64,000 bases of DNA from positions 104,282-168,281 of the forward strand of contig JANXCS010000001.1 of assembly GCA_025060105.1 (NCBI GenBank). The letters are read 5' to 3'. Under the pieces are notes generated by a model that saw only the letters and a list, made by a program, of their open reading frames with translations, was not told where the DNA came from and ran no database searches. Shown here in pieces: positions 62,497-64,000 of the stretch. Source of the DNA: Pseudothermotoga sp. Lineage in GTDB: Bacteria; Thermotogota; Thermotogae; Thermotogales; DSM-5069. The translations under genes were made by a program, and so were the position numbers. Every line of letters starts with the position of its first letter. Positions within the stretch are counted from its first letter, which is position 1.

Positions 62497-62877
62497 TTAG
62501 CTCACAAAAATGCGAACCGTTGTGCCATCGTTGCTCGATATATTCACAATGTCACCTTCTAACTCTTCTAAACTGCTTAGAACTTGATCGATCTGATGAG
62601 CGATCATTTGTAGATCAACGTTTGGTAACTTCTCTTTCAAGGCTGGCAACGAGAGTTTCAAAAGTTGTGCCATGCTCACAGGTATTTTCACATCAACTTT
62701 TTCGCCTTGAGCGCTTCTGATTTGAATGTAAAGCATTTTCTTTCCCGAAGTTTTTTCTCTCGCATGTTGCTGAGACGGTGAAAAAATTCCTACTGTTTCA
62801 GCTATCTCCAAAGCTTCCTCCGGACTTATCTTGCCTTCCTTGACGAGCTTGAACAACTTCAATAGTTCCTCCCTCAT
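62497..62877 (-). CDS. SHOCT-like domain protein, C-terminal domain shared with next gene
   Basis: A protein of 126 residues from ATG 62877, behind GAGGAGG; the longer frame to 62901 is rejected. N-terminal helix-turn-helix of SHOCT-like type: LLKLFKLVKEGKISPEEALEIAE. The C-terminal 80 residues (VDVKIPVSMAQLLKLSLPALKEK; GDIVNISSNDGTTVRIFV) resemble the strand-rich part of YvlB-like proteins. The upstream gene carries the same C-terminal domain. Function unknown. Confidence 0.8.
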   Translation of the reverse strand: MREELLKLFKLVKEGKISPEEALEIAETVGIFSPSQQHAREKTSGKKMLYIQIRSAQGEKVDVKIPVSMAQLLKLSLPALKEKLPNVDLQMIAHQIDQVLSSLEELEGDIVNISSNDGTTVRIFVS

Positions 62878-62890
62878 GATCTTCCTCCTC

Positions 62891-63412
62891 TCATACAACA
62901 CCGATTTTCACCGTTGTGTCCTCGGTTTCAATGTGAACGAAGTCTCCCTTGTATGTGAAAAGTTCATCAAGGCAAGAGTTTACCAGCGTGAGGATCGACC
63001 TTACTTCGTTTTCAGACAATGAAGAACCAGATTTTTTGCATAGATGCTTGATGAACAAAGAAGAAAGGGAGTTCAAAAAAGGCCTCACCAGCAGAATTAG
63101 GGATATCGGTATCGATATCTTGATGTCAACTTCTTTTTTTCCTCCTCTAATCCAGACGATGATCTTTCTGCCAACTGGTGCTGTAAAAAAGCTTTCAAGC
63201 CATTCAAGATCTTCTTCATCAATTTTACCTTTCAGTTGTTCTTTAAGAAAAAATAGTTCGTTCTTTTGCCTTTTCCTAGCACGAAGTGCGATTTTTGAGA
63301 GGGTAACTATCAGATAAATTCCGGCAGCTAGGAACAAGATACCGAAGAATACTCTAGCACCGAAAACTATCAAAGCTGTCCCTGCAAGTATCAGTATGAT
63401 GGCCAATAGCAC
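62891..63412 (-). CDS. Two-helix membrane protein with the same C-terminal domain
   Basis: A protein of 173 residues. Two N-terminal hydrophobic segments (LLAIILILAGTALIVFG; VFFGILFLAAGIYLIVTL) are followed by a cytoplasmic part whose C-terminus (VDIKISIPISLILLVRPFLNSL; GDFVHIETEDTTVKIGVV) matches that of the downstream gene. GTG start follows GGGGTGGG. It leads the minus-strand run containing valS. No name can be given. Confidence 0.75.
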   Translation of the reverse strand: MLLAIILILAGTALIVFGARVFFGILFLAAGIYLIVTLSKIALRARKRQKNELFFLKEQLKGKIDEEDLEWLESFFTAPVGRKIIVWIRGGKKEVDIKISIPISLILLVRPFLNSLSSLFIKHLCKKSGSSLSENEVRSILTLVNSCLDELFTYKGDFVHIETEDTTVKIGVV

Positions 63413-63575: not shown

Positions 63576-63584
63576 TGATACAAT
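63576..63584 (+). promoter_or_regulatory. Extended -10 promoter of the rplU leader
   Basis: TGATACAAT is an extended -10 element; no good -35 is visible. Transcription from here gives a leader of about 95 nt holding the hairpin described next. Confidence 0.5.
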
Positions 63585-63606
63585 AATGCCGCTGAAAAAA
63601 TTCATA

Positions 63607-63662
63607 GCACTTGAAAAACGTGAAAAAGGTTCCACGGTGAGTGGAACTACGTTTTTCAGTGC
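63607..63662 (+). ncRNA. Candidate rplU (L21) leader RNA structure
   Basis: A two-tier hairpin in the rplU 5' untranslated region. Outer stem: GCAC-T-TGAAAAACGT (63607-63621) with ACGTTTTTCA-GTGC (63649-63662), one bulged T. A 5' internal loop GAAAAA (63622-63627) leads to an inner stem GTTCCAC/GTGGAAC (63629-63647) with a GGTGA loop. It ends about 10 nt before the AAGGAGGTG site. It has no T tail, so it is more like a protein-binding leader than a terminator. L21 leaders are known in Firmicutes; identity here is inferred. Confidence 0.6.
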
Positions 63663-63685
63663 TTGTTTACCAAGGAGGTGTGTTC

Positions 63686-64000
63686 GTGTACGCCATTATA
63701 GAAACTGGTGGAAAGCAGTACCGTGTCAGTGAAGGCGACATAGTCGCGGTGGAAAAATTACCGCAAACCGAGGGAGAGCCTGTCATCTTCGACCGAGTTG
63801 TTCATGTTTCTGCCGATCAACTAGTCAAGATAGGACAACCCTATGTGGAAGGTTGCAATGTGAAAGGCATCGTGTTGAAGCATGAGAAGGCTAGAAAGGT
63901 CATGTCGATACGTTATAGACCTAAAGACAACGTTCGAAGGAGACGTGGTCACAGACAATGGTATACACTAGTTAAGATCGAAAAAATCGAGCTTGGTGAA
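63686..64000 (+). CDS. rplU: 50S ribosomal protein L21, 3' end at window edge
   Basis: 105 codons are visible and the frame is open to the window end. GTG start 63686 follows AAGGAGGTG. The sequence begins YAIIETGGKQYRVSEGD and ends with VRRRRGHRQWYTLVKIEKIEL, the L21 signature at the C-terminus, so probably only the stop codon is missing. The expected next gene is rpmA (L27), outside the window. Binds 23S rRNA in the large subunit. Confidence 0.97.
   Translation, partial: MYAIIETGGKQYRVSEGDIVAVEKLPQTEGEPVIFDRVVHVSADQLVKIGQPYVEGCNVKGIVLKHEKARKVMSIRYRPKDNVRRRRGHRQWYTLVKIEKIELGE

Follow-up and report, generated by a model that had tools for sequence, protein, structure and literature searches.

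A divergent RNA of the L21_leader kind precedes rplU in nearly all of Thermotogota

The leader of rplU, the gene for ribosomal protein L21, contains a conserved, covarying cis-regulatory RNA in nearly all of the phylum Thermotogota, and this element is real and not a product of chance. The element is a divergent form of the L21_leader kind, corresponding element for element in its anatomy to the Firmicutes family RF00559. We believe that it is a feedback element, with L21 as its predicted ligand and translation as its predicted output (probability roughly 0.78). We analyzed a 64,000-nucleotide stretch of a contig of Pseudothermotoga sp. (the window), which comes from a genome of 1.92 Mb, and used 103 genomes of Thermotogota for comparison.

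A two-tier hairpin upstream of rplU

The rplU leader in the window folds into an outer stem of 14 bp with one bulge that encloses a 7-bp hairpin (63607-63662; Table 1). By direct reading of the sequence, this structure follows an extended -10 box, with P1 beginning 22 nt after it, and precedes the ribosome-binding site of rplU. A sequence-only reading had described both the stems, bulge and pentaloop and their placement; the former is borne out by the sequence and the predicted fold, the latter by the sequence. The minimum free energy of the region 63576-63690 was -38.3 kcal/mol (z = -4.64), and 0 of 200 shuffled sequences folded as well. A chance hairpin is ruled out by this z-score together with the covariation across Thermotogota leaders described below. 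The same reading had given the internal loop as six bases, which holds for the minimum free energy structure, whereas the phylogenetically supported structure has 7 nt. A63627, the sixth base of the loop, pairs with U63648; family f8 and many Firmicutes have G-C at the equivalent place.

Table 1. Features of the rplU leader in the window.
Feature	Position	Strand	Remarks
Extended -10 promoter element, TG-A-TACAAT	63576-63584	+	from sequence
P1, 5' strand, GCAC	63607-63610	+	pairs with 63659-63662
Single-nucleotide bulge between P1 and P2, conserved	63611	+	U here, any base elsewhere
P2, 5' strand, UGAAAAACGU, 10 bp, 3' end GU	63612-63621	+	pairs with 63649-63658
Internal loop, GAAAAAG, 7 nt	63622-63628	+	opposite single U63648
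P3 hairpin, 7 bp	63629-63647	+	GUUCCAC 63629-63635 / GUGGAAC 63641-63647
P3 pentaloop, GGUGA	63636-63640	+	loop length varies elsewhere
Single U opposite internal loop	63648	+	U or C in relatives
P2, 3' strand, ACGUUUUUCA, 5' end AC	63649-63658	+	pairs with 63612-63621
P1, 3' strand, GUGC	63659-63662	+	pairs with 63607-63610
Shine-Dalgarno sequence, AAGGAGG	63672-63678	+	9 nt beyond P1 end
rplU (ribosomal protein L21), GTG start	63686-64000, continues past window end	+	PF00829, 1.6e-35

The operon order at this locus is rplU-prp-rpmA-rplM, encoding L21, Prp, L27 and L13 (PF00829, PF04327, PF01016 and PF00572). Beyond the window on its 3' side (L001:1931-2507) lie prp (PF04327) and then rpmA, followed in the same direction by rplM (L13). 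The L27 encoded by rpmA carries an N-terminal extension, MRIDIQLFGRRK. In Firmicutes, the same rplU-prp-rpmA arrangement occurs with an L27 extension, and Prp trims L27. Divergent from rplU are two overlapping genes on the minus strand, both upstream of a valS-like gene. The product of one (62894-63412) has 173 aa, is hydrophobic over a stretch at its N terminus and matched nothing in Pfam. The product of the other (62500-62901) has 134 aa and contains a SHOCT-like DUF2089-C domain (PF22746, 1.7e-06).

Conservation and loss in Thermotogota

The leader has a fixed design throughout the phylum. We oriented the rplU regions of 99 relatives and read their 5' flanks, for 100 rplU loci in all, and a common anatomy was visible even where the leader sequences differed entirely. 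A short stem (P1) is followed by a 1-nt bulge, a 10-bp helix (P2) ending in GU/AC, an internal loop ending in AA[A/G]N, a hairpin whose length varies, a single U or C, and then AC. The internal loop is usually 7 nt (range 5-10). P2 is 10 bp almost throughout, as read with a parser that sought a 10-bp P2; breaks or mismatches outside those 10 bp were rare.

The stems covary. In an alignment of 18 seed leaders, all from Thermotogota (A1), 94.4% of cells were paired and double changes occurred in 12 of 18 pairs, with a covariation score of 0.609 versus 0.218 for shuffled and at most 0.149 for slid alignments. Among 76 distinct Thermotogota leaders, 93.3% of cells were paired, there were 348 double-change cells versus 108 after shuffling, and the score was 0.671 versus 0.204 (shuffled) and at most 0.141 (slid); this alignment (A5) was fitted to the structure, so its counts lean, whereas A1 and A4 were made with MAFFT only and are free of that bias. 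The pair that closes the loop also covaries, being A-U in 63 rows and G-C in 11 of the 76-leader alignment. The sequence-only reading had proposed building a covariance model from Thermotogota rplU upstream regions to look for compensatory changes, and had named absence from close relatives as grounds against the idea; the changes are there, and the relatives have the structure.

Searches with covariance models found the motif almost exclusively at rplU. The model trained on A1 (R1) found 74 of the 100 rplU loci at E<=1, many of them outside the seed. Run on whole genomes, it matched 58 places, spread over 56 of the 103 genomes, and 56 of these places were directly before rplU. The remaining two were weak strays away from rplU (G085:C1:1101141-1101191, 26.0 bits, and G041:C16:90103-90151, 25.3 bits). 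A second regulon was rejected, given only these two places among 103 genomes. A joint model of both phyla (R2) found 82 of the 100 Thermotogota rplU loci at E<=1, and 9 of the 11 families are represented among them.

The position of the element in the leader is also constrained. In 73 of 83 Thermotogota leaders, P1 is preceded by a TG-N-TA--AT sequence at a distance of 3-35 nt (median 15). The end of P1 is 9-21 nt from the Shine-Dalgarno sequence (83 leaders) and 22-35 nt from the start codon. In each of the 77 distinct leaders the motif has a stronger fold than its shuffles (median z -3.66), and the spacer from P1 to the start codon is unstructured (median z 0.07). Predicted accessibility of the Shine-Dalgarno sequence varies by lineage (median 0.47). 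Sequestration of that sequence as a conserved device is ruled out, as the region from P1 to the start folds no better than shuffles.

One clade has lost the element. In family f10, nine genomes (genera g29, g30 and g34) had no R2 match at rplU, and their leaders (L014, L017, L043, L080, L081, L082, L084, L086 and L088) are AT-rich. These nine genomes form one clade in the L21 protein tree (support 100/98), and we infer that they are Petrotoga and its allies. Most simply, the motif was lost once, in this Petrotoga-like clade of f10.

The other loci missed by R2 are of several kinds. Two come from incomplete assemblies, one in f4 and one in f6; another copy (L054) sits at a contig edge; and others are diverged variants. 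L027 and L033 were missed by R2, yet the motif is present by eye, and L027 was also matched by R1. Four others (L089, L096, L099 and L100) keep P1, the bulge and P3 and have an internal loop inside P2. Together with L092, these four (genera g10, g11 and g14, family f3) represent a lineage variant with a P2 loop of GGA/GAAA or similar.

Relation to the Firmicutes L21 leader

The Thermotogota element and RF00559 share their parts. The RF00559 consensus is CGC-a-C aaaucaGGu-UuuuAAGU-hairpin-C-aCCu gauuuG-GCG. Like the Thermotogota element, it lies directly before the rplU Shine-Dalgarno sequence and consists of P1 (CGC in RF00559), a 1-nt bulge, a P2 of about 10 bp ending in GGU/ACC, an A-rich asymmetric loop ending in AA[A/G]N, a variable hairpin, a single C or U, and then ACC. 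There are also differences. The flanks CUACAACCGC and GAGUCUUAGU are invariant in RF00559, whereas Thermotogota leaders lack them and mostly have UGU after P1; likewise, the conserved flanks CUACAACCGC and GGCGAGUCUUAGU were present in Firmicutes leaders and absent from Thermotogota leaders. The loop pair is mostly A-U in Thermotogota and G-C in RF00559, and the sequence of P1 is free in Thermotogota.

RF00559 does not recognize the Thermotogota leaders at its gathering threshold. The comparison with Rfam L21_leader, suggested from the sequence alone, thus gave the same anatomy but scores under the 36-bit cut-off in 103 of 103 genomes. The best matches (26-28.5 bits) were in four f8 genomes, each at rplU, and two faint matches (E above 0.6) lay away from it. 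RF00559 had no match to the window at E<=5, and no Rfam family of any kind matched the leader in the window. The low scores are probably due largely to the absence of the invariant Firmicutes flanks.

A single motif accounts for the leaders of both phyla. When R1, trained on Thermotogota, was run over 206 kb of Firmicutes loci, only three matches reached E<=10, each of them in an rplU leader and on the correct strand. These three (L163, L164 and L174) are intermediates that combine the Firmicutes flanks with a Thermotogota-type core. In the joint two-phylum alignment, covariation was retained (0.565 versus 0.213 shuffled and at most 0.170 slid), and R2 found 58 of 80 Firmicutes rplU leaders at E<=1; a noisy generic stem parser used on the Firmicutes leaders was excluded from the counts. 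Because covariation is kept in the joint alignment and R2 finds the Firmicutes leaders, we conclude that this is one motif in two phyla. The covariation, the placement at rplU and the joint model uphold the earlier proposal of a Thermotogae counterpart of the Firmicutes leader. Its suggestion of a possibly distinct fold is not supported, since the parts coincide with RF00559 and one covariance model serves both phyla. The leaders of L10, L13, L19, L20 and S15 are alike in the principle of feedback and differ in the genes concerned.

The occurrence of the motif is not new in principle. Sun et al. (2013) applied Rfam models, at the noise threshold, to 255 genomes and stated that L13, L19, L20 and L21 motifs "were also identified in Thermotogales" (PMC3766115), so the idea that the element had gone unseen does not stand. 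In that study, which included 11 Thermotogales genomes, the Thermotogales occurrence of the L21 regulog (RegPrecise) receives one sentence; alignment, covariation and anatomy are absent from the text, and the L21 leader is listed as "predicted" and not as "known" (PMC3766115). The authors suggested transfer of L20 and L21 from Firmicutes (PMC3766115).

The L21 protein tree argues against recent gene exchange between the phyla. One branch separates 80 Firmicutes from 100 Thermotogota proteins (98/87; 97% of bootstrap trees) in a tree that is unrooted and built on few columns, and ancient transfer and descent are both compatible with it. Tentatively, a single ancestral L21 leader may have predated the Thermotogota split and may be common by descent with that of Firmicutes, a ruler of bulge, 10 bp and AAA loop that would be read by L21 and that is hidden in Thermotogota by Rfam's Firmicutes-trained model; we regard this joint proposal as possible but short of probable. 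Separate evolution of the Thermotogota fold, with convergence on the Firmicutes leader, would fit with the RF00559 cut-off being reached in 0 of 103 genomes and with the missing flanks, but we consider it quite improbable: the bulge, helix length, loop and 3' single base are all identical, the reciprocal weak matches fall at rplU only, save the two faint RF00559 ones, and the three intermediates unite the flanks of one phylum with the core type of the other.

Proposed feedback by L21

The Firmicutes L21 leader is assumed to mediate feedback by L21 on its own production. For Thermotogota, we infer that the RNA binds L21, rather than another product of the operon, and acts on translation. The hairpin at the 5' end of the rplU-prp-rpmA(-rplM) mRNA would be a protein-binding site. 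When L21 is in excess over 23S rRNA, free L21 would bind the face formed by the bulge, the 10-bp helix and the asymmetric loop. The structure locked by L21 would end 9-21 nt upstream of the Shine-Dalgarno sequence and block loading of the 30S subunit, and synthesis of L21 and the rest of the operon would drop until rRNA caught up. The near-fixed P2 of 10 bp is about one helical turn and would place the bulge and the loop on the same face, which fits a protein footprint. We found no structure matching the leader in the 23S rRNA of this genome with unfiltered R1 or a scan for the core motif, both in two dimensions, so at this level there is no support for mimicry of the L21 site of the ribosome. 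In E. coli, rplU-rpmA is reported to be unresponsive to its own products (PMC10931766), and L21 autoregulation is therefore not universal.

Transcription attenuation could in principle account for some features of the leader. In this scheme, P3 and the U-rich 3' arm of P2 would act as an intrinsic terminator that L21 favors or prevents. Premature termination in leaders is attributed to several ribosomal proteins, L21 among them (PMC4342826), and in the window, UUUUU lies inside the 3' arm of P2, directly 3' of the inner hairpin, where a terminator scan flags 63628-63648 (ACGTTTTTCA); this U5 after P3 has a weak terminator look. All f1 leaders have at least 5 U within 8 nt after P3. However, most families lack the U run (only 1-4 U in f3, f5, f7, f8, f10 and f11) and retain the fold, the run begins 3-4 bases after P3 and is paired within P2, and there is no intrinsic terminator (stem plus T run) between the motif and rplU. 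A conserved intrinsic terminator is thus ruled out, the U run inside P2 being lineage-specific, and we think attenuation unlikely. The earlier statement that there is no T run is not quite right, given the UUUUU in the 3' arm of P2.

A ligand other than L21 is a rather slim prospect. The operon would offer L27, Prp or, where it is joined, L13, and a partner such as L20 might also serve; the first place of rplU in rplU-prp-rpmA-rplM is no proof that its product is the regulator. Against this, the leader always adjoins rplU at the Thermotogota and Firmicutes loci, and L20 and L13 have separate leaders of their own in Rfam (PMC3766115).

Hairpins near the transcript start can stabilize mRNAs. A 5' hairpin that merely stabilizes the mRNA or sets the level of translation, with no protein ligand, would agree with the closeness of the element to the predicted transcript start (the -10 box is 3-35 nt upstream of P1) but is very unlikely, as it would not need a bulge, a 10-bp helix, an asymmetric AAA loop and an A-U/G-C loop pair kept across two phyla, and the structure is lost in one clade that retains rplU.

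We therefore favor feedback by L21 on translation as the function of the leader. Phylum-wide covariation outside Firmicutes reduces the motif to a core of bulge, 10-bp helix, AA[A/G]N loop and U/C-AC, and this core points to the bases that mutation and binding work should target. RF00559 overlooks an entire phylum and deserves widening. The loss in the Petrotoga-like clade provides a natural control, and a thermophilic L21 together with short leaders makes a co-crystal or binding assay practical.
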